A DNA stretch of 64,000 nucleotides from an uncultured Barnesiella sp. GTDB lineage: Bacteria; Bacteroidota; Bacteroidia; Bacteroidales; Barnesiellaceae_A. Position 1 is the first letter of the stretch, and every line of letters starts with the position of its first letter. Below the pieces are notes generated by a model. That model was not told where the DNA came from. It did no database searches and saw only the letters and a list, made by a program, of their open reading frames with translations. The stretch lies in the NCBI GenBank assembly GCA_944321085.1, contig CALUJY010000002.1, positions 62,001 through 126,000 of the forward strand, written 5' to 3'. The position numbers and the translations under genes are program-made. Of this stretch, positions 8,881-26,234 are shown in pieces.

Positions 8881-10188
8881 TTAGCTTTCAAGCAGTTTTA
8901 CGGCATCGACATACTGAGCGATGCCGGCTGCCACCTGTTTGGCTGCTTTCATGGCAAGTACCACCGTTTGTGGATGGTGTACTACGTCGCCGCCGGCAAA
9001 GACGCCTTTGCGGGTTGTCATACCATAGGGACGTTCCTTTATGATTACGTAGCCGTATTTATCGACATCGATACCCGTGGTGGTCGATACGATACGATTG
9101 GCAGGTCGCGACCCGATGGCAAGGAAAATACGGTCGAAAGGAATCTCTTTTTCGCCTTCGGGCGTGTCGGCACGGATGCCTGTTACTTTGCCATCGTCGT
9201 TGCCGATAAACTCCTTGGTCGATGTTTCCCACAAGAATTTGACCCCTTCGTTTACGGCTTCTTGATATTCGGTGGGTGTTGCCGACATTTCGGCTTCTGT
9301 GCGGTGGTATATCACCGATACGCTTGCAGCTCCCATTCGTAAGGCTGTACGAGCTGCATCCATGGCAACATTGCCACAGCCTATTATACCTACGTTTTCG
9401 CCTATTTTCATAGGTACGTGCGAACGATCTACTATATTTTGGTTGTAGATGCTCACCATGTGCAGCAGGTATGACGATTGTACGATACCATGCAGCTTGG
9501 CGCCGGGAACGTTCAGGTCGTTGGGCAGCGAGGTTCCTGTGCCGATGAAAATGGCGTCGTAGCCCATCTCGAACATCTGGTCGACCGTGATGTCACGGCC
9601 TACGACACATTTGAGGACGAACGTCACGCCCAAAGCCTCTATTTTTTCTATCTCTTTGCGTACTACCGCTTTGGGTAAACGGTATTCGGGGATACCATAC
9701 ATCAATACGCCGCCGGCTTCTTCTTGGCTGTCGAATATCGTTACGCCGAATCCCTGACGTGCCAAATCGCCGGCAACGGTCAGTCCGGCAGGGCCTGAAC
9801 CTATCACAGCAACTTTACCGCGTGTCTTTTGCGGCAGTCGTTCCCTAAGCAGGCTCATGTCGGTATCGAAATCGGCTACAAATCGCTCCAATTTGCCTAT
9901 TTGTATGCCTTTCCCTTTGGCATACAAGATACAGTGTCCTTGGCATTGGTTTTCGTGAGGGCACACGCGGCCGCAAATGGCGGGTAAGTTGCTCTTTTCG
10001 TTGATGATACTCATGGCTGCGCCCATGTTTCCCATAGATAATTGGTGTATAAACTCCGGTATGTCGTTTTCTATGGGACAGCCTTTGCGGCAGGATGGAT
10101 TCTTGCAGTTCAAGCAACGTTTCGCTTCTGTTATGGCCTCTTTGATGCTATAACTTTCGTTGATTTCTTTAAATGTTTTTTGTGTCAT
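8881..10188 (-). CDS. gltA: GltD/NfnB-type NADPH-dependent flavoprotein (glutamate synthase small-subunit family)
   Basis: The 435-aa enzyme has an N-terminal Fe-S cysteine domain (CLNCKNPSCRKGCP, then CGRVCPHENQCQGHC). An FAD-binding GSGPAGLTVAGDLA, then IPEYRLPK and GCGNVAMDAARTALRMGA for NAD(P)H follow, and it ends with VFAGGDVVHHPQTV. It fits the homotetrameric 'gltA' NADPH glutamate synthase/NfnB family. These proteins pass electrons between NAD(P)H and an Fe-S partner, either for glutamate synthesis or ferredoxin-linked transhydrogenation. The usual NfnA-like partner gene is not next to it here. The gene symbol is therefore provisional. Confidence 0.85.
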   Translation of the reverse strand: MTQKTFKEINESYSIKEAITEAKRCLNCKNPSCRKGCPIENDIPEFIHQLSMGNMGAAMSIINEKSNLPAICGRVCPHENQCQGHCILYAKGKGIQIGKLERFVADFDTDMSLLRERLPQKTRGKVAVIGSGPAGLTVAGDLARQGFGVTIFDSQEEAGGVLMYGIPEYRLPKAVVRKEIEKIEALGVTFVLKCVVGRDITVDQMFEMGYDAIFIGTGTSLPNDLNVPGAKLHGIVQSSYLLHMVSIYNQNIVDRSHVPMKIGENVGIIGCGNVAMDAARTALRMGAASVSVIYHRTEAEMSATPTEYQEAVNEGVKFLWETSTKEFIGNDDGKVTGIRADTPEGEKEIPFDRIFLAIGSRPANRIVSTTTGIDVDKYGYVIIKERPYGMTTRKGVFAGGDVVHHPQTVVLAMKAAKQVAAGIAQYVDAVKLLES

Positions 10189-10474: not shown

Positions 10475-11299
10475 ATGGAAAACATATCTTTGGAAAAGAC
10501 CATGAAAGCATGGAACGATGCACAAAACAAATTGCGTTCTATCTGCGCGGATACACCGAGTGAAGAGCGTAGCGAAGCCATTGCGTTTTGCCGTTCTTTA
10601 CACGCTCCTATGAGAAAACATGCTTCCCAGACTGATTATGCCGATTTCCTTGCAGAGTATGCACAAGTGTTGATGTTTGATGAAATGCTTGTGCAGGAAG
10701 AAATAGATGTGCAAGAAGAGCTGATTAAGATACGGCAGAGACAAGCCGAGGAAAACCGTGCGGAGTATTTCCCGCGATATACCAATGGTCTGTTTTACTT
10801 GGGTTATGCTCACATGAGTGTCGGTAACCCGAAAGAAGCAATGTATTATATGGAGCAGGCGGTAGAAAACGAACGGGTCATCAGTAAAGAGATGCCCGAT
10901 GCGAAAACCAACGGCTTGGCAGTGGCAACTTATATGCTGGCTCATACATACAATACGTTCGCGCGTAAAATCTTGGCAGAAGATACCTACAAAGAGGCTC
11001 TTATCGAATATAAAGCTCTTGCCGACAAGACACCCGACAATAAAAAGATATATGAGGTTATGGCTGATATTACGGTCGAATTTGCCGAATATTATTGGTT
11101 CGTCCCGTTTATAAATAAGGCATTAGACCGTTATTGGCAGGCCGAGAGTATCTATAAGGAACTATTGCCCGATGAATCGGCAATGGCGAAACTCAGAGGA
11201 TTGTATGAATTGATGATAAAACGGTATCGCTCGATGGGTAACGACGAACAGTGCGACCGATTGAGCAATATGCTGCAAGCTTGTACTCATACCCAATAA
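10475..11299 (+). CDS. TPR-like helical protein, first gene of the signalling island
   Basis: The 274-aa product is entirely helical by appearance, with no signal peptide. At least one clear TPR-like unit is visible around residues 103-130 (YTNGLFYLGYAHMSVGNPKE, then AMYYMEQAV). Weaker ones follow (TYMLAHTYNTFARKILAEDT, then YKEALIEYKALADKTPDNK). TPR proteins are protein-interaction scaffolds. It precedes the next gene by only 4 bases and so is probably co-transcribed and translationally coupled. Nothing catalytic is seen. I assign it as an adaptor or scaffold of the kinase/AAA island by position only. Confidence 0.7.
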   Translation: MENISLEKTMKAWNDAQNKLRSICADTPSEERSEAIAFCRSLHAPMRKHASQTDYADFLAEYAQVLMFDEMLVQEEIDVQEELIKIRQRQAEENRAEYFPRYTNGLFYLGYAHMSVGNPKEAMYYMEQAVENERVISKEMPDAKTNGLAVATYMLAHTYNTFARKILAEDTYKEALIEYKALADKTPDNKKIYEVMADITVEFAEYYWFVPFINKALDRYWQAESIYKELLPDESAMAKLRGLYELMIKRYRSMGNDEQCDRLSNMLQACTHTQ

Positions 11300-11303
11300 A
11301 ACT

Positions 11304-12437
11304 ATGAACTTTATGAAAACGTATGCTATAATCCACGATGCGATAGAGTTGGATACGCTCTATAAAGCAATAGATAAAGAAGAACTCGAAAAGAAAATAG
11401 CGCAATGTTATTGCGACTATTTCTATTTCAGAAAAGAATTAGAGGTCGGTATAAAGTTCAATCCTGCACCCGAAGAGTATTGGGCGACCAAGCAAAATGT
11501 GCTTTTCGAACAATATGGCATCATGTGGCATTCTCCTGCAGAATTGAATACCCAAACGTTGGGAAAGGAGTATTGTGAATATATGCCCGAAGTATGGATC
11601 CCTTCTGAGATAGTATCGCTTCGCAAACCGGCAGATTCTACTCTCTTACTTCCGTGGACACATATAGAAGTGCAGCTCTGCCATACTATACATGATTTTA
11701 CTATGACGAATAGAACCTATTCCGGATCTAAGTTAATCCCGAAAGAAAATGTGCGAGAAGGCTCAAACCTGATTTCGTTTTTCGATTCGTTTTATGATAA
11801 TTGGGGGAATATCAATATTGACCATGTTGATAAATATTCCATTTCCGGAAGGTATCAAATGGGCGATTTTACCGCTACGCGAAAAAAGGGCTTTTGGTCA
11901 AAAGAATACGGTATTGCAGGTTATACATCGGGAAGTATAGTAATACAGCTTATGGCCGAAAAAGAGCCTGCATTGCCATTGGGAAGCGATAAAAGAAAGT
12001 TGGTCGTGGCGTCATACAAGCGTGTTGCCATAGATGCTTTTGAGCCTGTTGAGTTGCTGACATTCCCTTTGGATGGTATGTCCGAAAATTACATTCCCTA
12101 TGAAGTAGGGGACGAATATACCGATGCTGTGCTCAAACGTATAGTGTGTATGAGCCGGAATTCGGCGGGTATCTCAGGGCAAATAGAACTAATGAATGGC
12201 GATATCCGTAATTTCTTGCTCGGAACGGGTGAATATTATCGCTATTTGTTCCCCGATGCTTATGTAAAAGTGTCGCTTGTCGATGACAATATGGAGAAAG
12301 CTATGGTTCCTGCCGACGCTGCCTGTTGTCGTTACTATATGCGGACCATTCCGGCCGAGACAGACGAAAACACCGTGCGAGTTCCTGCCAAAGGCTGCGG
12401 AGAGAGAGTCGATACAGACGATATAATGACGATATAA
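11304..12437 (+). CDS. Hypothetical protein with a YGIxWxSP motif
   Basis: I do not recognise this 377-aa family. Residues 59-82 carry YWATKQNVLFEQYGIMWHSP followed by AELN, which resembles the C-terminal end of the last protein of the island (23586-24395). The middle is rich in aromatic and beta-strand-like segments (EYGIAGYTSGSIVIQLMAEK). The C-terminal part (ISGQIELMNGDIRNFLLGTG) could be a small beta domain. The predicted start could be ATG 11304 or 11313 (MNFMKT). No signal peptide or membrane segment is seen. The stop codon lies inside an 11-bp tandem repeat. Confidence 0.6.
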   Translation: MNFMKTYAIIHDAIELDTLYKAIDKEELEKKIAQCYCDYFYFRKELEVGIKFNPAPEEYWATKQNVLFEQYGIMWHSPAELNTQTLGKEYCEYMPEVWIPSEIVSLRKPADSTLLLPWTHIEVQLCHTIHDFTMTNRTYSGSKLIPKENVREGSNLISFFDSFYDNWGNINIDHVDKYSISGRYQMGDFTATRKKGFWSKEYGIAGYTSGSIVIQLMAEKEPALPLGSDKRKLVVASYKRVAIDAFEPVELLTFPLDGMSENYIPYEVGDEYTDAVLKRIVCMSRNSAGISGQIELMNGDIRNFLLGTGEYYRYLFPDAYVKVSLVDDNMEKAMVPADAACCRYYMRTIPAETDENTVRVPAKGCGERVDTDDIMTI

Positions 12438-12448
12438 TGACGATATAA
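12418..12448 (+). repeat. 11-bp tandem repeat across a stop codon
   Basis: The unit ACGATATAATG is repeated almost three times and contains the TAA stop (12435-12437) of the preceding gene. Slippage of one unit would shift the reading frame at the C-terminus. Confidence 0.75.
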
Positions 12449-12531
12449 AAATCATTTTATCCAGAGTATTTGTAATGTGATATTGTATGTCTCCGAAGCC
12501 TGAGTGCGAACCTATAAAATAGAAACATGTT

Positions 12532-12792
12532 ATGTTACTGTCATATTCATACGATGAACATACAACCTACGAGATAGAAGTACCCGATGATATGTATGAA
12601 GCCGCCCAAAGTAACGACCCCGGAGGGAAAGCAGCTTTGGCTCTTGCTTTGTATATACAAGAAGAAAATTGGGAAGCACTCGAACTGATTGCCGAGTGGA
12701 TGCACTGTGCTGCCGACAAAGGAAATGAGGAGGCCGAGGAATGGTTGGAAGATTATTACTTCGACGATGGTGCATGCGACCCTTATTCCTGA
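12532..12792 (+). CDS. Small acidic Sel1-like protein
   Basis: This 86-aa, strongly acidic protein starts at the ATG at 12532. The nearby ATG at 12527 is out of frame. Residues from about 58 (MHCAADKGNEEAEEWLEDYY) match one Sel1/TPR-like helix pair (AAxxGNxxAxxWL). One Sel1 unit alone is too short to form a solenoid, so it may act as a capping or adaptor subunit with a partner such as the preceding TPR-like protein. Genes flank it at 94 and 42 bases on the same strand. Confidence that it is a gene is good; the role is unknown. Confidence 0.65.
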   Translation: MLLSYSYDEHTTYEIEVPDDMYEAAQSNDPGGKAALALALYIQEENWEALELIAEWMHCAADKGNEEAEEWLEDYYFDDGACDPYS

Positions 12793-12834
12793 AAATTTTT
12801 TGTAACGTTTCGATATAATTAATTACTCTATAAT

Positions 12835-13809
12835 ATGGACCAATATAAATATCAAGAGCAACAGAAGTCCCAAGAGAAACAAAAGAGCGAGGTCGCTTCG
12901 GACGTTCAGTATGGGAAGAAATGCCCCAACTGCGGGCACATGTGCGATATAAATGATACCTTTTGTGTAGAATGTGGCTTCTGCTTGTCGGGAGGAGAGT
13001 GCCCTTCTTGCGGAATTACTGTACAACCCAATTGGGAGATATGTCCTTCATGCGGCCATCCGTTGCATGGCGATGCCTGTTCGTTTTGCGGAGCGCATTT
13101 GGATGAACAGGATACTTTCTGTACCGAGTGCGGTAATCCGCGAGGCGGTATAGAATGCCCGAAATGCCATACCCTGAATTTCCGCAGTTTCTGTCGGAAT
13201 TGTAATGAGCCGCTGAATGATATGGCGCAGCGCGAGGTAGAGAAAGCACTCAAAGACCCCAAGTTCCAACGTATGTTGACTTTGGCCAAAGAGCTTGCTG
13301 CATTGGAAGACCAGATTATGGAGGCACAAGAGCAAGGCTCGTCGGAAACAGCACCCGAACTGCCGCAATTGAGCGAAGAAGACAGGGCTATGCTCGACCA
13401 ATATAGAGACCTGATTAATATGGTGAGAAATATACCTGACGCGCCCGAGCAGAAACAAGAAAAACCCAAGCAGCAGCAGAAAGAGCGAAAGCAACTGTCG
13501 GTAAACTCTGTTTCACTCGAAGAGACCATCGCCATATACAAATCGAAGGTGGCCGAGATGCAAAAAGCCATGAGCGAACTTATTCCCGACCCCGGATCTA
13601 CACCGCAAGAACAGCGCAACTATTATTCGGCAAGGAAGTTGCCGGTGCTGACTACTCGCAAAGAGCGAGTCCCCGAATATTGGGTATGTAACCTGTGTGG
13701 TTGTTATCATAACCAACCTTCTGAGTGTGCAGAACCTGAGTTGGGCGGAACATGGACGTATAGAGATATTACCGTGGTGGAGAAGACATATCAATATCAA
13801 GACGAGTAA
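12835..13809 (+). CDS. Five-ribbon zinc protein with coiled coil (DZANK-like scaffold)
   Basis: The 324-aa product carries a tandem array of four zinc ribbons and a fifth at the C-terminus. Cysteine pairs are at residues 30/33-44/47, 56/59-70/73, 82/85-96/99 and 108/111-120/123. The C-terminal set is CNLCGC near 285-290 with C298. A charged helical region with a likely coiled coil and a Gln/Lys-rich linker (about 130-260) lies between them. Ribbons of the CPxCG-FCxxCG type are used for protein-protein contact and occur also in the FHA and AAA proteins of this island. I infer a scaffold role. There is no membrane segment. Confidence 0.8.
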   Translation: MDQYKYQEQQKSQEKQKSEVASDVQYGKKCPNCGHMCDINDTFCVECGFCLSGGECPSCGITVQPNWEICPSCGHPLHGDACSFCGAHLDEQDTFCTECGNPRGGIECPKCHTLNFRSFCRNCNEPLNDMAQREVEKALKDPKFQRMLTLAKELAALEDQIMEAQEQGSSETAPELPQLSEEDRAMLDQYRDLINMVRNIPDAPEQKQEKPKQQQKERKQLSVNSVSLEETIAIYKSKVAEMQKAMSELIPDPGSTPQEQRNYYSARKLPVLTTRKERVPEYWVCNLCGCYHNQPSECAEPELGGTWTYRDITVVEKTYQYQDE

Positions 13810-13832
13810 CTAACGACATATAAATCAACAAG

Positions 13833-16800
13833 ATGAGTAATAATACACAAAACCCTGATAATATCGATAAGACCTTGAAGCCCGATGTGGCCGCAGATAA
13901 GACGTTGAAGCCGGATGTGGCAGTGGCTGACAAGACGTTGAAACCGGATATAATAGACAAAACCTTGAAGCCCGATGCGGCCGCAGATAAAACGTTGAAG
14001 CCGCAAGCTGTGGCCGATAAAACATTGTCGTCGCAAGTCGCCGATAAGACCTTGCGCCCTGCCGGTAGCGATGCGTCGATAAAGCGAGAAATAAAAGAGT
14101 TGGAAGAGTCATCGAAGGATGTAGAATCCGAATATCTTCTCAACGGTGTTACCTACAAGACGGTGAAAGTGCTCTCTACGTCGTCGGGTGAAGCCCGTAT
14201 CTTGTTGGTAGAGAACAAGGGACAGCAATATGTTTTGAAGCTCTACTATTACGGACAACATCCCGACCATGAGATTCTCGAAATGATACATAAAGTAGCC
14301 GGTAGCGGTTTGCTGGTCGATATAATTGCACATGGATATTGGACTAATCCCAAGCGCACCGATGAGCAACTCGATTTTGAGTTGATGAATTACTGTTCGG
14401 GAGGCTCTCTCGATAAAATCAACTTGCGCGGCAACGAGGAAAAATTCCGGGAGATTGCCATTCGGGCGGCCTCTTCGATAGATTTTCTGAACAAGCACAA
14501 TATATTGCACCGCGATATAAAACCCGGTAACTTTTTCTTTACCGACGATTCGCAAACCTCTTTGGTATTGGGTGACTTCGGTATTGCTGTGAAATGCCCG
14601 CAAAACGGTTCTTGTAGGGTCGATACAGCGCGTACGCCTATATATGCGGCCCCCGAGTTTTATACGCACGTTCCCGGTGAACGTCCCGACATCGATATAA
14701 AGAGCGACTATTATTCGTTAGGTATTACGTTGTTGAGTATATGGATGGGAGAGGCCAATATAGCCGGTAGTGAGTCGGTATTGTTGAAAAACAAACTCAA
14801 CGAAACATTGCCGTATCCTACCGATATGTCGGCTCACACGTTGTCATTGATAAAAGCTCTTACCCGGTTGATGCCTAATAAACGTTGCGGATTTACCGAA
14901 ATCGTACGTTGGGCAAAAGGTGAAAATATCTTCAAAGATGAAAAGGCCGAGTCCGATGAGGCTCAACTCAACATTGTGTTCAATTCCGGGAAAAAGCAAG
15001 TGGCACATACACCCGAGGAGCTGGCTGCCTTTATGTTGGCCGACCAAGAGCTGGCTATCAAGTATCTTTACACCGGTAAGATAACAAAATGGTTCAACGA
15101 CGCCAAACGTCCTGAGTTGGCGGTCAATATAGAGAGCATCGTAGAAACACTCTATCCCAAGGATAAAACTGCCGGATTGTATGCTGCCTGCTACATGCTC
15201 GATCCGGCCATGCCATATACCGATGTAAAAGGGAAAAAACTCGATAGTACCGAACAGATTGCCCAGTCGTTGGTAGATAACTTTGCACATTATAGCAAAG
15301 TACTCTCCAATCCCAATGACCCCTTATATATATACCTGAATGTAAGTGGTCTGAAAAGCATTTCCGATACTTATCCCAAACTGTTCAAGGCCGATAGCCG
15401 CCGAGCTTTGTGGCAACTTATCTATGCTCTCAATCCGCAAGCGCCATTTTACATCTCTATGGAAGATGGCAAGACGGTCGCTTGTAACAACGGCGATGAG
15501 ATATTGAAAGCTGTTTACGAATCGGTACCGACAGAAGACAGCTGGGACGATTTGCGTAGCGAAATGTTCTTTGTGTGGTTGGCACAGCGTGACCCGGCTG
15601 TCGCCGGTAAAATAAGAAGTCGATTGAAAGGACTCGACAACAAAAACATGGCACTTACATGGTATGTTCTGTATTCTCTCAATCCGAAAGTATCTTATAT
15701 GTTGCAATTGGACGAGACTGCGTCCGATTACTACTTTACGCACTCGCAAGTTGCCGACTTTATAAACCTTTGTCTTATCGATTATTTGGTACTCGATGGC
15801 GAGCCCGATACTATCATCAGAAACCTTACGGATATTAAAGACACCCGTCTGTATTATTACTTCAAGTCGAAAGAAATATATGACGACAAGATAGACTGGA
15901 TTTCTTATTGTATGGATGTGGAGTCAAAGGAGAATAGTCGCAAGAATGGTCCGTATAGCTGGATTTATGGTGCATTCAAAGCCATCAAAGGCCTCGACTT
16001 CAAACCATATTATTATTTCCCGAAGAGCAAGATTTTGGTTACGTCGTTGGATGAACTGAAAAAAGTTCCGTCGAGCGAAATAAAAGAAGAACTCGATAAG
16101 CGTTATCTTGAAGAGTGGATTGCTACTTTCTTCCAAGAAGACCCGTATGCCGACCTTTCGCAGAAATTTACATACGAGAAGCTCACTGTTAAGTATCTCG
16201 AATTTATAGAGAAACTCGATAAAAAGAATGTCAATGTATCTAATTTCAGAAAGGCTACCACTATCGTAGAAAAAAATAAAAAGAAAGTACGTACTGCATA
16301 CGGGTGGTTCTTATTGATGCGTCTGTTGTTGGGAGTGCTTTGTTTTGTTCCTATCATAGCATTTATTGTAGCCTTGATTTGGTTCGGCTTACCATTCGAC
16401 AGTAATCCGTTGAGCGGATTTTCAGCTCCGGCAATCATAGGAATGACCATATTGTTCTCTTTGGTTGTGTGGTTTGTGGGCGATTTTGACTCTTGTCTCG
16501 GTAGCGTGATAGTAGGAGCGATAGCGGCGGTCGTCGTCTATTATGCCCTCTATTTTGCTCTTGAATTGATAATGCCTGTGGCCCGCTGGATTATGGTGGC
16601 ATTGTTGGCGTTGTTGGGATTCTATATTTTGCGAAGTTGTTATCTCAAATTGCCTACCAAGCGAAGCGCAAACAAATTATTGTTTAACCCCACCTTCGAA
16701 GAGAGTGGCCTTGAACCTCTGCATTTCGCTTACAGAGCCCAAGCCGGTTCTTATTTCGATTCGTCCATAGCCGATGCATCGTTCGATTATGTTGATTATT

Positions 16801-17240
16801 TGAAGAAAAACATGAAGTCGTTTGCTATCAGAGCAATACCTGTTACGCTGTTGGTATGTGGATTGGCATACGTGTTTGTTCTTTTCACGCCGGCATTGAG
16901 CAATGTTCTTCCGTTGAAAGATATGGTGACTGCCGAATCTTCGCTGCAAGGTGAGTGGACCGGTACGTTTGAAGGCCGTCCCGCAACACTCGAAATTACA
17001 GAGGTCGATGGCGACAACCTGAAAGCCGTTATCAACGTACAGTATTCCAATATGATTTCCGAGCAGCTCGAAGGAACGGTCGATATGGAAAACATGCTCA
17101 TACACTTCGATGACGTAGTGTCGAATGGTAATCTCGATGGCCGTTACGATGCTATATTGAGCGACGACTTGAAGTCGTTCGAGGGAATGTATGAAAACTA
17201 TACGACTAAAAAACAGGTAAAAATATCATTTAGCAAATAA
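13833..17240 (+). CDS. Membrane-anchored Ser/Thr protein kinase with DKTL repeats
   Basis: At 1135 aa this is the signalling core of the island. Residues 12-76 hold seven DKTL-type repeats (see the repeat entry). The kinase domain spans about 104-363: K136 in YVLKLYYYG, the catalytic loop HRDIKPGN (226-233), DFG (248-250) and APE (273-275), all intact. Residues 380-760 are helical, with three units of about 80 aa each containing a Y(M/A/S)L(D/N)P core (about 454, 531, 614). Four hydrophobic segments (about 824-935) and one more (about 1000-1020) anchor it in the membrane. A C-terminal beta-rich domain (1038-1135; GEWTGTFEGRPATLEI) follows. The kinase side is expected in the cytoplasm. Confidence 0.9.
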   Translation: MSNNTQNPDNIDKTLKPDVAADKTLKPDVAVADKTLKPDIIDKTLKPDAAADKTLKPQAVADKTLSSQVADKTLRPAGSDASIKREIKELEESSKDVESEYLLNGVTYKTVKVLSTSSGEARILLVENKGQQYVLKLYYYGQHPDHEILEMIHKVAGSGLLVDIIAHGYWTNPKRTDEQLDFELMNYCSGGSLDKINLRGNEEKFREIAIRAASSIDFLNKHNILHRDIKPGNFFFTDDSQTSLVLGDFGIAVKCPQNGSCRVDTARTPIYAAPEFYTHVPGERPDIDIKSDYYSLGITLLSIWMGEANIAGSESVLLKNKLNETLPYPTDMSAHTLSLIKALTRLMPNKRCGFTEIVRWAKGENIFKDEKAESDEAQLNIVFNSGKKQVAHTPEELAAFMLADQELAIKYLYTGKITKWFNDAKRPELAVNIESIVETLYPKDKTAGLYAACYMLDPAMPYTDVKGKKLDSTEQIAQSLVDNFAHYSKVLSNPNDPLYIYLNVSGLKSISDTYPKLFKADSRRALWQLIYALNPQAPFYISMEDGKTVACNNGDEILKAVYESVPTEDSWDDLRSEMFFVWLAQRDPAVAGKIRSRLKGLDNKNMALTWYVLYSLNPKVSYMLQLDETASDYYFTHSQVADFINLCLIDYLVLDGEPDTIIRNLTDIKDTRLYYYFKSKEIYDDKIDWISYCMDVESKENSRKNGPYSWIYGAFKAIKGLDFKPYYYFPKSKILVTSLDELKKVPSSEIKEELDKRYLEEWIATFFQEDPYADLSQKFTYEKLTVKYLEFIEKLDKKNVNVSNFRKATTIVEKNKKKVRTAYGWFLLMRLLLGVLCFVPIIAFIVALIWFGLPFDSNPLSGFSAPAIIGMTILFSLVVWFVGDFDSCLGSVIVGAIAAVVVYYALYFALELIMPVARWIMVALLALLGFYILRSCYLKLPTKRSANKLLFNPTFEESGLEPLHFAYRAQAGSYFDSSIADASFDYVDYLKKNMKSFAIRAIPVTLLVCGLAYVFVLFTPALSNVLPLKDMVTAESSLQGEWTGTFEGRPATLEITEVDGDNLKAVINVQYSNMISEQLEGTVDMENMLIHFDDVVSNGNLDGRYDAILSDDLKSFEGMYENYTTKKQVKISFSK
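13866..14060 (+). repeat. Seven DKTL-type threonine repeats in the kinase N-terminus
   Basis: The coding repeat gives DKTLKPD four times, then DKTLKPQ, DKTLSSQ and DKTLRPA, spaced 9-11 residues apart with Val/Ala/Ile linkers. The threonines are residues 14, 24, 35, 44, 54, 64 and 73. The last copies are less conserved. The segment is unstructured by composition and precedes the kinase domain, so the threonines are plausible autophosphorylation sites read by the FHA protein at 21285. That use is inferred. Confidence 0.9.
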
Positions 17241-17248
17241 ATTTCATT

Positions 17249-20200
17249 ATGGCTATAACATGTCCTAAATGCAATAAACCCAACCGCAACGAAGCCATCT
17301 ATTGCAAATGGTGTGGTTCGTGTGTTATTTCCAAATCGGCCGAACCGCTGAAAGAGTTGGTTGGGATGGACGACATCAAGGCGCAGTTACGCAAAATCAT
17401 CAATACCTGCGAGGCGCTGCAAGCACGCTCCCGCCACAGCGGGGTCTCGTTCCGCATGGATTTGAATATCGTTATTACCGGTAATACAGGAACCGGTAAA
17501 ACAAAATTGGCGCGGGTCATCCATAAATTGTTGTATTCTTCCGGCATTGTAAAATCTCCGGAGCTTACAATCGTCGACGCGGTGGATTATTCGGATTTTT
17601 CTGACCCTAAGAATTGGGACGCCAACATTGAGAAAGTAAAAGATGGTATTTTGTGCATAGAGAATGCTCAAAAGTTATTGCCGACGGGTAAGTCGGATAC
17701 TATTTCTAAACTCGATAAGTTGTTTAGCAGTATGCCCAAGTGGATGGGGAAACCTATCGTCATACTGTCTGGACTTCCCGATTTGCAGAAGTTTATGTCG
17801 GCAAATCCCGATGTGCGGAACCGCTTCCAATATCAATTCGATTTGAAAGATTATACGGTCGAAGATGTAGTCGCAATATGTACGAAGATATTGACGGACG
17901 AATATCATATCTCGCTCAATCCCGATGCCGAGGAGAAACTCGATCGTGTATTCAAGTACGAGAAACGTAATAGCGGCGATAATTTCGGAAACGGACATTT
18001 GGCGGCGCAGAAAGCATACAATATCTTGCTCTGTCTTAGCGAACGAGATAGTACGTCGAAAAATCCCGTTGCTATTCCCGAAGATATTCCCGGTAAAGAA
18101 TTCCGGCCTAAGACATTTGAGGAGGTTATGGCCGAGCTCGATGAGTTTGTAGGCGTTGATGAGATAAGGGAGACGGTGCAGAAGATTGTCAATAAAATGG
18201 ATATGGATATGGAGCGGAAAGGCGAAAGTGCCAAGCGCGAAATCAAAGACCATTTTCTTTTCCTCGGCAATCCCGGTACCGGAAAGACAACCATTGCCCG
18301 TATTTTTGCCGATATTCTCAATTCGCTTGATGTGCTCCCCGTAGGACAGCTGGTGGAGGTATCGCGTAAAGATCTGGTATCGAATTATGTGGGACAAACT
18401 GCCAAGGAGGTAAAAGCTGCTTTCGACCGTGCTATGGGTGGAGTCCTCTTTATCGATGAGGCATATTCGTTGGTACAAGGCGATAATGACAGATTCGGTC
18501 AAGAGGCTGTCGATACGATGTTGAAGTTGGCCGAAGACAATCGCGGAAAAATTGTCGTTATATTGGCCGGATATACCAAAGAGATGGGCGAATTTTTGAG
18601 TACCAACTCAGGCTTGACCTCTCGTTTCAATGAGACAGTTAATTTCCGTGATTATACCGCCGAAGAGCTTACCGAGATATTCCGCGGAATGGTGAGGAAA
18701 GGCGGCTTTACGCTCGATGAAGAGGCGAATGAACGAGTGGAGCACTACTTCCAAAAAATGTATCTTACTCGTACGCGCAACTTCGGTAATGCGCGTGAAG
18801 TACGCAATACATACGATAATGCTGTCAAGAATCAGGCCAAGAGGTTACAGGCAATCAAAAATACGCCTCAATACGACGCCTCGATGTTGTATGTGTTGAC
18901 TCGTGAAGACATTGAAGGAGCCGAGGCTACCAAGGAGAAGAGTGTAGATGACATCATGAAAGAGCTCGATGAGTTTGTCGGCATGGATAGCGTGAAGAAG
19001 GAGATCCGTTCTATCGCAAACAAAATCATGCTCAATCGCCGCATGATGGAGATGGGGCTTGCAGGAGCCGAGGCTCCTACCGTACACTTGGTAATAACGG
19101 GTAATCCCGGTACTGGTAAGACAACTATTGCACGCAAGATGGGCGAGATATTCAAGGCGATAGGGTTGTTGCCATCCGACAAGGTGGTACAACGCGAGCG
19201 CAAGAGTCTGCTCAGTTCGTATATAGAAGATACGGCTATTAATGTAGATAAGGCGTGCGACGAGGCAATGGGCGGTATCCTCTTTATCGACGAGGCCTAT
19301 AACCTGATGCCCTTCGATGCCAGTGGAAGTAGAGACCAAAACGGAGCAAAGGCAGTAGATGCCCTTATGACACGTATGAGCAACGATGCCGGCAAATTCG
19401 TCGTTATTTTGGCGGGATACCGTGCCGAGATGGAAGAGTTCATCAACAATGCCAATCCCGGATTGAAACGCCGTTTCACGCACTTCCTGCATATCGAAGA
19501 TTACACAGCCGATGAGTTACATACGATATATAATCAGTTGGCGGCTAAGAAGAACTACAAGTTTACACCCGAAGCCGAAGAACTCGTGGCGAAGTGTATC
19601 GACGAGATGGTATCGGCCAAGGATGAGAATTTCGGAAACGCCGGAGAAATGGTGAAACTGTTTGACCGTACACGTTCTCGACAATCAGACCGTTTGGTGG
19701 CGCACATGAACGAAAATATGACGCCCGATATGTATTTGACGATAGAAGCCTCCGATATACCGTACGATCCGCCCAAGAAAGTCGATGTAAACGAGTGCCT
19801 CGCAGAGCTGAACAACCTGATAGGGCTCGATTCGGTAAAAGACGAGGTACGCGGTATAGCCGACTACATCAACATCGAGCGCGGCAAAGCCGAAGCGTTG
19901 GGTAAGAAATTCGAAGGCATCTCCGATCACTACCTGTTTATCGGTAATCCCGGAACGGGAAAGACCACCGTAGCGCGCATTATGGGCAACATCTTCTATT
20001 CGTTAGGTATGCTGCCGAGCAACAAGGTGGTCGATGTCACGGCCAAAGACCTCATAGCCGGATATATAGGGCAGACCGGCAAGCAGACCGAGCAGGTGGT
20101 GAAACGCGCTATCGGAGGAGTGCTGTTTATCGACGAGGCCTATTCGCTCGACGACGGTCCGCATGGGTTCGGTAAAGATGCTACGGCGACGTTGCTGCGC

Positions 20201-20596
20201 ATGTTGCTCGATTACAAGGGTAAGATGATATGTATTGCAGCCGGTTATCCGTATGAGATGCAAAAATGGCTCGATACGAACTCGGGCTTGACCTCTCGCT
20301 TCAATAAAACCATCATTTTTGAGGACTATAATGCAGAGCAGTTGTCGGAGATATTCCTGAATAAGGCGAAGAAAGATCGTTTGACACTTGATGCCGAAGC
20401 CGAGAAGGCAATGCGTAGTTACTTCGACAGCCTCTGTCGCAACAAGGGTCGCAACTTCGGTAATGCACGTGAGGTAAACAACTATTTTGCAAAAGTGAAG
20501 ATAAACCAAAGTGCCCGTTTGCGTAAGGCAATGGAGCGTCCCGACTTTGATAAAATGATGTTCTGTCAATTACTGGCAGAAGATATGCTCATTTAA
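17249..20596 (+). CDS. Zinc-ribbon protein with four CbxX/SpoVK-like AAA+ modules
   Basis: This 1115-aa protein starts with a zinc ribbon (CPKCNKPNRNEAIYCKWCG, residues 5-23) and continues with four AAA+ modules. P-loops are at 78-85 (GNTGTGKT), 340-347, 618-625 and 899-906 (all GNPGTGKT). Walker B is intact in modules 2-4 (FIDEAY, Asp403/Glu404, Asp681/Glu682, Asp962/Glu963). Module 1 has CIENA instead, so it probably binds but does not hydrolyse ATP. SRF or RRF arginine-finger candidates follow each active module. CbxX/CfqX and SpoVK proteins are hexameric protein remodellers. The gene begins 8 bases after the kinase stop, so the two are coupled. The substrate is unknown. Confidence 0.9.
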   Translation: MAITCPKCNKPNRNEAIYCKWCGSCVISKSAEPLKELVGMDDIKAQLRKIINTCEALQARSRHSGVSFRMDLNIVITGNTGTGKTKLARVIHKLLYSSGIVKSPELTIVDAVDYSDFSDPKNWDANIEKVKDGILCIENAQKLLPTGKSDTISKLDKLFSSMPKWMGKPIVILSGLPDLQKFMSANPDVRNRFQYQFDLKDYTVEDVVAICTKILTDEYHISLNPDAEEKLDRVFKYEKRNSGDNFGNGHLAAQKAYNILLCLSERDSTSKNPVAIPEDIPGKEFRPKTFEEVMAELDEFVGVDEIRETVQKIVNKMDMDMERKGESAKREIKDHFLFLGNPGTGKTTIARIFADILNSLDVLPVGQLVEVSRKDLVSNYVGQTAKEVKAAFDRAMGGVLFIDEAYSLVQGDNDRFGQEAVDTMLKLAEDNRGKIVVILAGYTKEMGEFLSTNSGLTSRFNETVNFRDYTAEELTEIFRGMVRKGGFTLDEEANERVEHYFQKMYLTRTRNFGNAREVRNTYDNAVKNQAKRLQAIKNTPQYDASMLYVLTREDIEGAEATKEKSVDDIMKELDEFVGMDSVKKEIRSIANKIMLNRRMMEMGLAGAEAPTVHLVITGNPGTGKTTIARKMGEIFKAIGLLPSDKVVQRERKSLLSSYIEDTAINVDKACDEAMGGILFIDEAYNLMPFDASGSRDQNGAKAVDALMTRMSNDAGKFVVILAGYRAEMEEFINNANPGLKRRFTHFLHIEDYTADELHTIYNQLAAKKNYKFTPEAEELVAKCIDEMVSAKDENFGNAGEMVKLFDRTRSRQSDRLVAHMNENMTPDMYLTIEASDIPYDPPKKVDVNECLAELNNLIGLDSVKDEVRGIADYINIERGKAEALGKKFEGISDHYLFIGNPGTGKTTVARIMGNIFYSLGMLPSNKVVDVTAKDLIAGYIGQTGKQTEQVVKRAIGGVLFIDEAYSLDDGPHGFGKDATATLLRMLLDYKGKMICIAAGYPYEMQKWLDTNSGLTSRFNKTIIFEDYNAEQLSEIFLNKAKKDRLTLDAEAEKAMRSYFDSLCRNKGRNFGNAREVNNYFAKVKINQSARLRKAMERPDFDKMMFCQLLAEDMLI

Positions 20597-20625
20597 TAAT
20601 ATGATAATTAAATAGTATAAATAAT

Positions 20626-21150
20626 ATGGATTATAAAGAAATATTGGCTCCTTTGTCTGGATGCGATTCTTTTAAGAAGGAGATAGCAGACAAGGTTTCT
20701 AATATAAAAATGGAAAAGAGCCGAGGCGGAAATATGAGCCGTTTTTTCGATAATTATCTCTTTATGGGAGAAGCCGATACCGATATGAGTATGGCTGCTC
20801 GCATGATGGCTGAGATTCTTTTTGCCGAGGGTATGTTAACCTCCGATAAAGTGGTGACAGTGTCGAGAGCCGACCTTGTGGGATCTTTCGTAGGAATGTC
20901 GAAAGCGCTGGTAAATAATGCCTTCAAGGATGCGAATGGAGGAGTGCTGTTTATCGATGAGGCCTATTCGCTCATGTTGGGAGATAATGATTATTTCGGA
21001 AAAGAAACCATGGATGCTTTAATAGCAAATTTAGATGACGCCAAAGGCCGTTTAATCTGTATTGCGGCAGGAAGTTCGTCCGAAATGCAACAATGGCTTG
21101 AAAACGATAGGCGTGTAGCCATGCGTTTCAATAAAACTGTTGCTTTTTGA
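20626..21150 (+). CDS. Truncated pseudo-AAA paralogue lacking the P-loop
   Basis: The 174-aa protein is clearly related to the fourth AAA module of its upstream neighbour: FDNYLFMGEADTDMS aligns with HYLFIGNPGTGKT, and CIAAGSSSEMQQWLEN aligns with CIAAGYPYEMQKWLDT. The Walker A lysine and glycines are replaced (residues 48-55, GEADTDMS), while Walker B is kept (VLFIDEAYSL, Asp111/Glu112). It ends at RFNKTVAF, before the helical lid. No homology continues in other frames past the stop. It may be a regulatory cap for the AAA ring or a decaying duplicate. The intact reading frame favours a retained role. Confidence 0.8.
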   Translation: MDYKEILAPLSGCDSFKKEIADKVSNIKMEKSRGGNMSRFFDNYLFMGEADTDMSMAARMMAEILFAEGMLTSDKVVTVSRADLVGSFVGMSKALVNNAFKDANGGVLFIDEAYSLMLGDNDYFGKETMDALIANLDDAKGRLICIAAGSSSEMQQWLENDRRVAMRFNKTVAF

Positions 21151-21284
21151 GAATGTGAAAAAGTGAAGGTAGATGCAAATCCTTTATTAATAAGGTTATA
21201 GTATTTACCGCTATTGATAAGAATGATTTGTAGATTACGGGTAGGAATAGTCCCGATAATCGATTTATTTAAGACCATTTTGAT

Positions 21285-21947
21285 ATGAGTGATCTCGTAA
21301 AATGCCCTCATTGCAGTAAAAATATAGAAAACGATAGTTTCTATTGTGACCAATGCGGTGCTGAATTGATGTATTGTCCACAATGTCATATTTTCGGGAA
21401 AGGCAAATTCTGTTCTAAATGCCGCACGCCCCTTGTGCCTGCAAGCAAAAGTGCGTCGTCTCCCGCAACCTCTCAACCTGTCAGTCCGCAAACGTCAGGT
21501 GGTGTACAGATGAATCAGCCTGTCAATCCGCAACCGGCAAGTGGCATGCAGCCGAATTACAACGCTGCGCAAAATCAGCGACCGCCGATGGCAGCGGGTG
21601 GAAATGTAAATCAATCGACCGCAAAGCCAACTGCTCAGCCCGGTATGCAAAATATGGTTACACCCACCAAATTGGTATGTCGTGCAGAAGGTATTGTGCT
21701 TATATTGAAAGATGGTGCTATTATAGGTCGTCGTAATGGCGACTATGTGGCGCAGTTCAGCAGTCAGCCTTATGTATCGGGAACACATGCCCGTCTTGCA
21801 TATACAACACAAGGTTGGACTATTACCGACTTAGGTTCCACCAATGGAACAATGGTGAATGGCAAGAGTTTGTCGGTTAATGCACCGTATCCTATATCTG
21901 TTGGCGATACGGTTCGTATTGCTACGCTCGATTTTATTGTAGAATAA
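21285..21947 (+). CDS. Zinc-ribbon FHA-domain protein (phosphothreonine reader)
   Basis: This 220-aa protein has two N-terminal CxxC ribbons (CPHC...CDQC, residues 7-24; CPQC...CSKC, 31-46). A Pro/Gln/Asn/Ser-rich linker (about 52-125) follows, then an FHA domain (130-220). The FHA signature residues are present: GRR (148-150), SGTHAR (165-170) and LGSTNGTMVNG (183-193). FHA domains bind phosphothreonine peptides. The kinase repeats or the PP2C tail could be the ligands. It is separated by 134 bases from the pseudo-AAA gene, so a separate promoter is possible, and by 15 bases from the phosphatase gene. Confidence 0.9.
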   Translation: MSDLVKCPHCSKNIENDSFYCDQCGAELMYCPQCHIFGKGKFCSKCRTPLVPASKSASSPATSQPVSPQTSGGVQMNQPVNPQPASGMQPNYNAAQNQRPPMAAGGNVNQSTAKPTAQPGMQNMVTPTKLVCRAEGIVLILKDGAIIGRRNGDYVAQFSSQPYVSGTHARLAYTTQGWTITDLGSTNGTMVNGKSLSVNAPYPISVGDTVRIATLDFIVE

Positions 21948-21962
21948 AAAAACATTGAGTTT

Positions 21963-22880
21963 ATGATATTACAGTGTCAAGTTGCAAGCGACGTAGGATG
22001 CGTACGCACCAATAATGAAGATATAGCCTTGTTGGCAGGTGGTTTATATAGAGACGCTGTCGATCGTTTTGTGGCAGAGTTACAGCCTAATTCACGTTTC
22101 GTTGCTATTGTAGCCGATGGCATGGGTGGATATGAAGGTGGTGAGATAGCCAGCGAAATGGCAGCAAAATCTTTCGATTCGTTTTTTACAAGTTTGCCTG
22201 CCGGCCTTTCCGTCGATGGATTGGTCGCACAAGTGAAGGCGTGGGTGACAGATATGCATGCTACGATAATAAGTTACGGAGAAGAGCATCGCGAGTATGC
22301 CGGATTGGGCACGACAATGGTAGGAATATTTGCTTACGAAGGTCGTATATATCGCATCAATGTAGGTGATAGCCGCTTGTATCGGTATAGGAACGGAATA
22401 TTGAAACAACTTTCGGTAGATCATTCTATGCGAGAGCTTACCGGTGATATGTCGCAGCCTTCTAACTTAATTTATAACTCTTTGGGAGCAGGTGGAAAAG
22501 TCTTTGCCGATGTCGAGGAGATGACCATGCAAATCATCGATGACGACCGGTTCTTGATTTGTTCCGATGGTTTGAGCGACATGATTTCTGATGAAGAGAT
22601 TAGCTCTATTTTAGCCGATAATGCCGATGTGGAAGCTCTTATAGCTGCTGCCAAGCAGGCCGGAGGACGCGATAATGTAAGCGTGATACTGCTGACGGTA
22701 TGTGCCGCAGAGCAAGAGGCCGACGATACCTCAGATGCAGCAGAGGCCGAGGCAGATACTACGGGTGATGACAGTACAGATGACGAGGGTGGCCGCGATA
22801 GCGATACGTCCGTTATCGACAGGTCTTCGCCTATGAGAAATGACCAATCTATTCCTAAAATAGACAAAACAAAAAGATAA
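21963..22880 (+). CDS. PP2C-type Ser/Thr protein phosphatase
   Basis: The 305-aa product has the PPM/PP2C metal-site motifs: NNED (17-20), VADGMGGYEGG (50-60), NVGDSRLYRYR (133-143), CSDGLSDM (200-207) and GGRDNVSV (234-241). The catalytic domain ends near residue 247. It is followed by an acidic, Asp/Thr/Ser-rich tail of almost 60 residues ending in IPKIDKTKR. That tail includes an IDKT element like the kinase repeats, so it may be a kinase substrate or FHA ligand. This is the likely eraser of phosphorylation by the kinase at 13833. It is cytoplasmic, with no membrane segment. Confidence 0.92.
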   Translation: MILQCQVASDVGCVRTNNEDIALLAGGLYRDAVDRFVAELQPNSRFVAIVADGMGGYEGGEIASEMAAKSFDSFFTSLPAGLSVDGLVAQVKAWVTDMHATIISYGEEHREYAGLGTTMVGIFAYEGRIYRINVGDSRLYRYRNGILKQLSVDHSMRELTGDMSQPSNLIYNSLGAGGKVFADVEEMTMQIIDDDRFLICSDGLSDMISDEEISSILADNADVEALIAAAKQAGGRDNVSVILLTVCAAEQEADDTSDAAEAEADTTGDDSTDDEGGRDSDTSVIDRSSPMRNDQSIPKIDKTKR

Positions 22881-22929
22881 TCAGGCATGTGCCATAGATT
22901 TTGGTGAAACGATACCTAAAAGAAAAACT

Positions 22930-23574
22930 ATGACAGTGAGAATTTCTTTGCATCCTGCTGGTGATGATAAACTCTTTGGCAAAAGCAAATGGTGGGGTGA
23001 CCCCGAGTTGCCGGTCGATATGGATTATCCGAATTACAGAGATGATAACGGCGAGGAGTATCCGTTGACCTTTATATGTCAGGTAAATTGTTCGGAATTA
23101 GCTGCATACGATACACCGCTTCCCAAAGAGGGATTGTTGTGTTTTTTTGCCCGGATAGATTATTATCTCGGTTACGACGACGATGGAGTATCGTGCGAGG
23201 GTGTTTGGCCGCTCGACGATGTGAAAGTAATATATGTTGCACCCAAAGATATGCCGCGTATTGAAACGAAAATACTTATCGACGAGAATGATGAGCCTAT
23301 GGCATTGCCTTGCAGGCGCATAGAATGGCATGAAGAAACCCGAAAAGACAATTGCGACGGGCATAAACTATTGGGGGCGCCTTTTATGATACCGTGGGAC
23401 GATTGGGATGCACCTTGCGAAGGTTGGAAAGTATTGTTGCAAGTAGATACCGATGAAGACGACGATTATACGCTCCGCTTTATGGACGATGGCGTATTTT
23501 ACTTCTTGATAGCTCCCGACGATTTGCAAAAAGGCCGATTCTCGCAAGTGCGCGGCTTTATGATTTCCATGTAA
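22930..23574 (+). CDS. DUF1963 (YwqG-like) protein
   Basis: At 214 aa with a high content of Asp and Trp, it fits the DUF1963 pattern: KSKWWGDPELPVDMDYP near the N-terminus and LTFICQVNCSEL downstream, with a C-terminal VLLQVDTDEDDDYTLRF. The biochemical function of DUF1963 is not established; such proteins are often found next to AAA+ or kinase signalling genes. The gene lies 49 bases after the phosphatase and 11 bases before the last gene of the island. The prediction of membership is firm; the role in the island is unknown. Confidence 0.8.
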   Translation: MTVRISLHPAGDDKLFGKSKWWGDPELPVDMDYPNYRDDNGEEYPLTFICQVNCSELAAYDTPLPKEGLLCFFARIDYYLGYDDDGVSCEGVWPLDDVKVIYVAPKDMPRIETKILIDENDEPMALPCRRIEWHEETRKDNCDGHKLLGAPFMIPWDDWDAPCEGWKVLLQVDTDEDDDYTLRFMDDGVFYFLIAPDDLQKGRFSQVRGFMISM

Positions 23575-23585
23575 TAGAGATTGAT

Positions 23586-24395
23586 ATGAACAGAGAAGCT
23601 CAGATAAAGTCGATAGCAGAAGATAGCAAGTTGTCGATAAACAATAGAATAGAGAAGATACTCTCTGTGCATGATGAGGTCGATGGCGATACCGACGAGT
23701 ACTACGTATTAGGATGTACGGTATTTGAAACCATTCGTATTCTGTTGTTGAGCGATAATTACGAAGATTGTCATCTCGACGATTTGTTGATGTGTAATTG
23801 CATGCTTGCTGAGGCGTACAAACATACTTCTCAGTCGTGGCGCATTGCTCCGTTGGCACGAGAAGTATATGATAAGCTCATAGGCTCTCTCACCCGGAAA
23901 ACCGAAAGACTGCATACGCATGTGCAAGTATTGGGGCGTGTATGTGATTGTTTGCGAGGAACAGGGCATCCGCGACTGATGATGAGATTGCTCGGCATGC
24001 AATTGCGATATGAGAAATCGTTGCCTGAACCTGACCAAGAGGAGTTGGAAGAGATTGTCGATACCTTGTATCGTTTATCGCTCCTTACAAAATGCGATAC
24101 GTGGTTGCAACCTGTTGAGGCCGATGTCGCTGCGTTGTTAGGAGCTGAAAAAATGGAGGAGATAAAGCAAAAACCGGGCATCGGTTCGCTTGCGGTAGAC
24201 CCGGTGGAATATACCGAAGAGTGGGAAAATATTATTGACGAAGTAGAAGCCCGGGTCAGTGAAGAATTGGCCGATGAGCCCAAGGGCATGGGATTTTGCT
24301 TTACGTATTGGCATGTAAAAGAGGGGATATTGCAAGAATATGGTATAAAGTGGCGTTCTCCGAAACGGATGAATCCTCGCGTGATGTTCGATTGA
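23586..24395 (+). CDS. Helical hypothetical protein, last gene of the island
   Basis: I do not recognise this 269-aa family. It is helical, with charged repeats (YEDCHLDDLLMCNCMLAEAY) and no signal peptide. The C-terminus (YWHVKEGILQEYGIKWRSP, then KRMNPRVMFD) resembles a motif near residue 59 of the 377-aa protein encoded at 11304. This links the two ends of the cluster and supports a single unit. It begins 11 bases after the DUF1963 gene. Confidence 0.6.
   Translation: MNREAQIKSIAEDSKLSINNRIEKILSVHDEVDGDTDEYYVLGCTVFETIRILLLSDNYEDCHLDDLLMCNCMLAEAYKHTSQSWRIAPLAREVYDKLIGSLTRKTERLHTHVQVLGRVCDCLRGTGHPRLMMRLLGMQLRYEKSLPEPDQEELEEIVDTLYRLSLLTKCDTWLQPVEADVAALLGAEKMEEIKQKPGIGSLAVDPVEYTEEWENIIDEVEARVSEELADEPKGMGFCFTYWHVKEGILQEYGIKWRSPKRMNPRVMFD

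Positions 24396-24752: not shown

Positions 24753-26234
<1,482 letters not shown>

Follow-up and report, generated by a model that had tools for sequence, protein, structure and literature searches.

Ser/Thr kinases (STKs) encoded together with phosphatases and partner proteins are known from several bacterial and archaeal systems. In the TerY-P triad and its CoCoNuT-associated versions, a PP2C phosphatase, an STK and zinc ribbons are combined in one operon, TerY-P including a vWA protein and having its zinc ribbon fused to the kinase (PMC11090510). GAP1-N2-type sets include a vWA protein as well (PMC7159879). The PpkA/PppA/Fha pathway of type VI secretion systems (T6SS) brings together a membrane Thr kinase (writer), a PP2C (eraser) and an FHA protein (reader) in one locus, and subtypes c-j of type VII secretion systems (T7SS) contain an STK with transmembrane (TM) segments, a PPM phosphatase and, in T7SSe, a separate FHA protein, the systems themselves being defined by the FtsK-type TsxC and the WXG100 protein TsxA (PMC11217815). 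Haloarchaeal Vps4/ESCRT loci join an AAA protein with FHA, STK and Ser/Thr phosphatase (STP) components (PMC10936438), and KKP consists of two kinases and a phosphatase, with an STK and a PP2C among them. Here, we analyze a locus in a 64,000-nucleotide stretch of DNA (the window) from an uncultured Barnesiella sp. (contig CALUJY010000002.1, positions 62,001 to 126,000), where a run of eleven genes (g1 to g11) contains a conserved five-gene cassette encoding a multi-zinc-ribbon protein (g4), a membrane-anchored STK (g5), a tandem AAA protein (g6), an FHA protein (g8) and a PP2C phosphatase (g9).

The locus resembles each of these systems in part and differs from all of them. Compared with TerY-P, none of its proteins contains a vWA domain (Pfam scans of all eleven), its zinc ribbons are found on the putative scaffold, AAA and FHA proteins, and an FHA protein and a tandem AAA protein are added; no zinc ribbon matched g5 in Pfam, its C-terminus consisting instead of TM segments and a β-rich tail. 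Compared with T6SS, no Tss genes are present in the locus, as the original prediction had stated, and the machine component is a CbxX/SpoVK-type tandem AAA protein accompanied by ribbon proteins. No TsxC/FtsK/EssC or WXG100 family was found in the eleven locus proteins by Pfam, the rest of the genome not having been searched for these families. As it lacks vWA, Tss, FtsK and WXG100 components, the locus is therefore not a TerY-P, T6SS or T7SS system. In contrast to the haloarchaeal loci with their Vps4 and ESCRT-III components, the AAA protein is of the CbxX type and is combined with ribbon scaffolds, and where KKP has two kinases, a single kinase is found here together with FHA, AAA and scaffold proteins. 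The AAA core and AAA_lid_6 are shared with CbxX/CfxQ, SpoVK and EccA; however, CbbX and SpoVK have a single catalytic module, whereas the proteins described here contain 3-6 modules per chain, an N-terminal zinc ribbon and a first module predicted to be non-hydrolyzing. Dynein, midasin/Rea1 and RNF213 also carry several AAA modules per chain, with active and inactive sites mixed, but belong to other AAA clades, whereas the present proteins are bacterial and made of small modules without large linkers. Six modules per chain, as in dynein, midasin and RNF213, are seen in one genome only (G125), the other chains having three to five, and the resemblance of the G125 protein to these engines would be a likeness of design, not kinship.

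No matching system set was found in PADLOC-DB, where the locus gave kinase and AAA fold matches, a weak PbeC match of g4 and no match for g8, g9, g10 or g11. The view that the locus matches no named system was likewise borne out in NCBIfam and in the literature searched (open-license papers), in which the five-gene set is not described; as far as could be found, it is apparently undescribed as a system. A plasmid of the rumen Bacillota Aristaeella lactis (NZ_CP069422.1; L031, 7418-25280) carries a cassette of STK, zinc-ribbon FHA, PP2C and AAA_2 (ClpB-like) genes that also encodes a 4Fe-4S radical-SAM-like protein and a DUF4011 protein. Its two kinases match the kinase profile of the g5 family, which suggests that a wider class of such cassettes may exist.

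Conservation and distribution of the five-gene cassette

The conserved unit consists of five genes, g4-g5-g6-g8-g9, rather than eleven. The whole run had been proposed as one system, and this eleven-gene unit was rejected: neighborhood comparison found the five core genes together elsewhere, but not g1-g3, g7, g10 and g11, which are local. In the loci read, the core follows the order multi-zinc-ribbon protein, kinase, zinc ribbon plus tandem AAA protein, zinc-ribbon FHA protein, PP2C. This order is identical in at least nine loci (window, L045/L053, L047, L048/L054, L049, L050, L065, L113 of genome G812, and G125), the G125 cassette being divided between two contigs, L046/L055 and L103, which together contain all of it. 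The partial contigs L051 and L066 agree with it. Wherever a contig is complete the order is kept, with the exception of two Prevotellaceae loci (L056, L057) that contain only the first four core genes and have a GNAT gene where the PP2C would adjoin the set.

Within a sample of 396 Bacteroidota genomes, a profile of the region following the g5 kinase domain matched seven genomes strongly, including that of the window, and profiles of g4 and of the ribbon plus first AAA module of g6 matched the same seven strongly, corresponding to a cassette frequency of about 2% (7/396). Scores of the AAA module 1 profile were 420-477 bits in the seven, the next match being an ordinary AAA module at 149 bits. 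An eighth genome was matched by the post-kinase-region profile at 2e-4 and has no cassette at the matching locus, and no cassette was found at the loci of weak kinase-region matches in G449, G558 and G758. The profiles were built from known members and are hence not blind, but solitary homologs would have shown up. An order-wide search, a class-wide search and a collection of named genomes yielded additional loci; the carriers named in the collection are two Prevotellaceae and three Ignavibacteria or Melioribacteraceae. Altogether, the searches extended to 1948 genomes of this one phylum, a total that includes repeats.

Pairwise distances of the five core genes are correlated (r 0.64-0.92, Mantel p <= 0.013), and the core-gene trees agree on a split between a Bacteroidales group and an Ignavibacteria group. 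Gene order, co-occurrence and congruent distances and trees together indicate that the five-gene core is passed on as one unit. The cassette was not found in eight congeners searched and is therefore accessory.

Kinase, FHA protein, phosphatase and ribbon protein

The g5 protein is composed of N-terminal DKTLK/R repeats, a kinase domain, a helical post-kinase region, TM segments and a C-terminal β-rich tail. Both g5 and its homologs have the K, HRD and DFG motifs. In the six kinases analyzed for hydropathy, about 4-5 TM segments are predicted close to the C-terminus. Six [DE]xT[VILMT][RK] motifs (the D-K-T-L-[KR] repeats) lie within the first 95 residues of g5, with 0.08 expected by shuffling, and strict or related Thr-repeat tails occur above chance in 9 of 13 kinases; a drifted form, SGTQRP, is seen in the L065 kinase. 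The same Thr motif forms the very C-terminal end of all six FHA proteins of the Ignavibacteria group (DATVRV, EKTVRI, DKTVRI, EKTIRV, DKTIRL and DKTERV), and the acidic C-terminal tail of the window's PP2C ends in IDKTKR. It is a natural inference from these sequences that the g5 repeats may serve as autophosphorylation sites and as ligands of the FHA domain.

The post-kinase region contains repeated units (LYxGKIxKW ... NDxxYxYL) and has no Pfam family. AlphaFold2 (AF2) modeled it with a predicted local distance difference test score of about 80. No fold match to this model was found in PDB or BFVD at E<=0.001, and a search with the whole-kinase model matched kinases only. The region may be a new fold; with five or six sequences behind it, we regard this as no more than a lead.

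The FHA domain of g8 keeps the phosphothreonine-binding motifs GR, SxxH and NG, as do its homologs, and the PP2C motifs DGMGG, SDGL and DN are present in g9 and kept in its homologs. A writer/reader/eraser set coupled to an AAA protein had been proposed for this locus, and the motifs are indeed intact and the genes coupled both physically and evolutionarily. Zinc ribbons are common to g4, g6 and g8. The g4 protein combines four Cys4 ribbons, a coiled middle part and a conserved C-terminal unit (W-C-N-x-C..H..P..CA.P..GG.W), so that its earlier description as a five-ribbon protein is fair. A g4 homolog is found directly upstream of every kinase homolog where the contig reaches, with a SUKH gene in between in two loci, and g4 is probably a scaffold.

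The tandem AAA protein

The predicted four-module zinc-ribbon AAA protein was confirmed in g6, which starts with a ribbon followed by four AAA modules, AAA_lid_6 being matched in four stretches (1e-44). Core and lid are as in the CbxX/CfxQ-SpoVK-EccA clade. The protein scores 735 bits against SpoVK TIGR02881 and also matches EccA TIGR03922, both above curated cut-offs; these scores are summed over modules and indicate clade kinship only. Module 1 has an intact Walker A motif and a Walker B motif without the catalytic Glu (ILCIENAQ), whereas modules 2-4 have DEAY. In all 11 members of the g6 family, an N-terminal zinc ribbon precedes module 1, in which Walker A (G-x4-G-K-[TSN]) is intact but the catalytic Glu has been lost, DE being replaced by DN, EN or ND (ILFIDNAQKL, ILCIENAQKL). 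Loss of the catalytic Glu with retention of ATP binding is a known design in other asymmetric AAA machines. Two to five active-type (DEAY) modules follow. The G812 chain has three modules in total and that of G125 six; the window protein and five others have four, and three proteins have five. The modules after the first are of two types, which alternate in part within a chain. The G125 protein (L103, 156-5189) is a 1677-aa chain of six CbxX-type modules, the first without the catalytic Glu and the rest with DEAY.

The g7 protein has GEADTDMS in place of Walker A, keeps DEAY and ends before the lid. It is nearest to module 4 of g6 (43% identity, in agreement with the tree) and was seen at the window locus only. 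The pseudo-AAA paralog noted earlier is thus real but not part of the core, and from these comparisons it is probably a decayed local duplicate of g6 module 4.

Tandem AAA proteins were also seen outside the cassette. The window's genome encodes a second one (L104, 7062-10499; 1145 aa) adjoining a DnaE-like gene, in which no N-terminal zinc ribbon was found. Many Ignavibacteria contain open reading frames (ORFs) of about 1300 aa (L105, 6460-10383, and similar ones) whose products combine a helical N-terminal part with tandem AAA modules; at the loci read, they are not linked to genes for kinases or FHA proteins. A human gut contig labeled Bacteriophage sp. (MT836273.1; L092, 2002-4785), possibly a bacterial fragment, encodes a zinc ribbon plus AAA protein adjoining a P-loop protein.

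Proposed function and alternative explanations

We propose, with slightly better than even confidence, that the five genes form a phosphothreonine switch controlling an AAA protein-remodeling machine at the inner membrane. The proposal builds on the gene set and its order, its co-occurrence, the congruent distances, the intact motifs and the conserved Thr tails. The kinase g5 would sense the state of the envelope or cytoplasm and phosphorylate its own N-terminal Thr repeats and, in other members, also the tail of the FHA protein. Several copies of the g8 FHA protein could then bind the phosphothreonine sites, the zinc ribbons shared by g4, g6 and g8 gathering the scaffold and the tandem AAA protein at the membrane. 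There, g6 would act as an asymmetric engine in which one non-hydrolyzing, ATP-binding module is followed by several active ones, and may pull on or reshape a bound client protein. The phosphatase g9 would strip the phosphates and thereby reset the complex. We can put forward only tentatively the more specific idea that multivalent phosphothreonine-FHA contacts switch a dynein/midasin-like single-chain asymmetric AAA machine that evolved independently in the CbxX/SpoVK clade, as an undescribed bacterial system. To our knowledge, Ser/Thr kinase circuits are poorly mapped in Bacteroidota. If correct, the model would add to this phylum a conserved phospho-signaling system with a directly testable code between kinase tail and FHA domain. 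The homologous chains of 3, 4, 5 or 6 AAA modules with one dead module each would represent a natural series bearing on the evolution of single-chain AAA engines and on the retention of asymmetric inactive sites.

Several observations weigh against this proposal. Conservation extends to no client or effector gene, which leaves the output a guess; envelope or protein-quality control is the most likely one, given the membrane anchor of the kinase, surroundings made up mostly of housekeeping genes and the lack of a conserved effector gene. The kinases of L050, L051 and L113 have few Thr repeats or none, the L066 kinase has a different repeat (DGTD), and the terminal Thr motif is not present in Bacteroidales FHA proteins, including g8. 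The G812 kinase (L113) has no TM segments, a separate 418-aa TM protein adjoining it, and the PP2C gene does not adjoin the set in the two Prevotellaceae loci, one of these genomes having other PP2C genes. Many carriers are draft or metagenome-assembled genomes.

A role in phage defense or cell suicide, in which phosphorylation would release an AAA-driven effector and the variable neighbors (SUKH, DUF1963, GNAT, g1-g3, g10-g11) would act as effectors or immunity-like adaptors, is possible but not favored, and we consider it fairly improbable. It would fit the accessory distribution, with absence from the congeners and rarity among the sampled genomes, as well as the SUKH-1 domains inside or adjoining three cassettes. 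Kinase/phosphatase modules can act against phage, as reported for KKP (PMC11341870), TerY-P-like modules offer a precedent (PMC11090510), and PADLOC reports generic kinase/AAA domain similarity to the mad6, PD-T4-6 and IetA models. These PADLOC matches, however, reflect shared kinase and AAA folds, the core contains no nuclease, toxin or NADase, and cassette neighbors are not conserved. The phage-defense role raised in the original prediction receives no support from the neighborhoods: eleven loci are flanked mainly by housekeeping genes, and defense-family matches are a small minority of the 76 flanking proteins.

A phosphorylation-controlled part of a T6SS- or T7SS-like secretion apparatus, in which the AAA protein would be a factor resembling EccA, would account for the EccA and SpoVK profile matches and has parallels in the STK/PPM/FHA sets of T6SS and of the new T7SS subtypes (PMC11217815). 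We regard it as unlikely, because VipB/TssC (PF05943) was not found in the window's whole genome (an E. coli control was positive) and the locus lacks FtsK and WXG100; no FtsK/EssC, WXG100 or Tss family occurs in the eleven proteins or among the 25 families that are most frequent in the flanks, and the summed AAA scores speak for clade kinship only. Slightly less probable still is a metal-responsive phospho-switch distantly related to TerY-P, from which the vWA protein has been lost. The combination of PP2C, STK and zinc ribbons recalls that triad (vWA, PP2C and ribbon-fused STK; PMC11090510), but no vWA domain is encoded and the kinase has no ribbon, an FHA reader and a tandem AAA protein being present instead. 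That the genes are a chance run without common function has a negligible probability in our view: six other genes of the run are indeed not conserved with the core, but for the core itself this explanation is already refuted by the recurring order in at least nine loci, the same 7 of 396 genomes recovered by three profiles and the congruent distances.

Locus layout and neighboring genes

ORF calling and Pfam reproduced the eleven consecutive ORFs with their named domains and short gaps, all on the forward strand at 10475-24395 and separated by 4-134 bp (coordinates recomputed).

Table 1 Features of the eleven-gene locus, with positions in the window
Feature	Status	Description	Position	Strand	Basis
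g1	local	TPR-like helical protein	10475..11299	+	Pfam; not seen at other cassettes
g2	local	no family	11304..12437	+	Pfam, homolog search
g3	local	helical, 86 aa	12532..12792	+	neighborhood comparison
g4	core	multi-zinc-ribbon protein, 324 aa	12835..13809	+	Pfam DZR (3e-19), alignment, neighborhoods, profile
g5	core	membrane-anchored Ser/Thr kinase, 1135 aa	13833..17240	+	Pfam protein kinase (1e-22), alignments, hydropathy, motif test, AF2 (score 80)
g5 Thr-repeat tail			13833..14117	+	motif count vs shuffling
g5 post-kinase region		repeated helical units	14970..16322	+	Pfam, AF2, fold searches
g6	core	N-terminal zinc ribbon and four CbxX/SpoVK-type AAA modules	17249..20596	+	Pfam, profiles, alignments
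g7	local	truncated AAA paralog	20626..21150	+	Pfam AAA (4e-10), alignment, tree
g8	core	two zinc ribbons, linker, C-terminal FHA	21285..21947	+	Pfam zinc ribbon and FHA (3e-15), motifs
g9	core	PP2C phosphatase	21963..22880	+	Pfam PP2C_2 (8e-13), motifs
g10	local	DUF1963 protein	22930..23574	+	Pfam DUF1963 (1e-26)
g11	local	helical protein, no family (Pfam)	23586..24395	+	Pfam scans

The run is flanked by a gltA-like oxidoreductase gene (8881-10188, minus strand) and by guaB (24762-26234). In congeners, the genes downstream of guaB are kept and those upstream of it are unlike the window's; no clean vacant insertion site was seen in them. The gltA-like gene may be a recent gain, since eight congeners have only a 40% identical paralog. 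Neighbors of the cassette elsewhere are mostly unrelated housekeeping genes. SUKH-1 (SMI1/KNR4) proteins are encoded at three Ignavibacteria-group loci; in two cases, the gene separates the ribbon-protein gene from the kinase gene. The variant cassette of G812 (L113, 5259-14099), with its TM-less kinase and the 418-aa TM protein alongside, has a transposase-like gene upstream.

Carriage by plasmids or phages was considered and rejected. Plasmids gave no DNA or g4 match, and g6 matches in phage collections were single or tandem SpoVK-like AAA proteins, with no cassette in the contigs read; scanning viral contigs with the kinase region gave no match.

No homolog of g1, g2, g10 or g11 was found near other cassettes in the loci compared, and g2 has no full-length homolog in 98 other genomes searched. 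A domain homologous to g3 is fused within a 301-aa protein encoded directly downstream of the L065 cassette. A 28-residue motif, YW.K..L..YGI.W.SP..LN, is shared between g2 and the C-terminus of g11, and the part of g2 bearing it has further matches to small ORFs, both in one congener and at other places in the window's genome.

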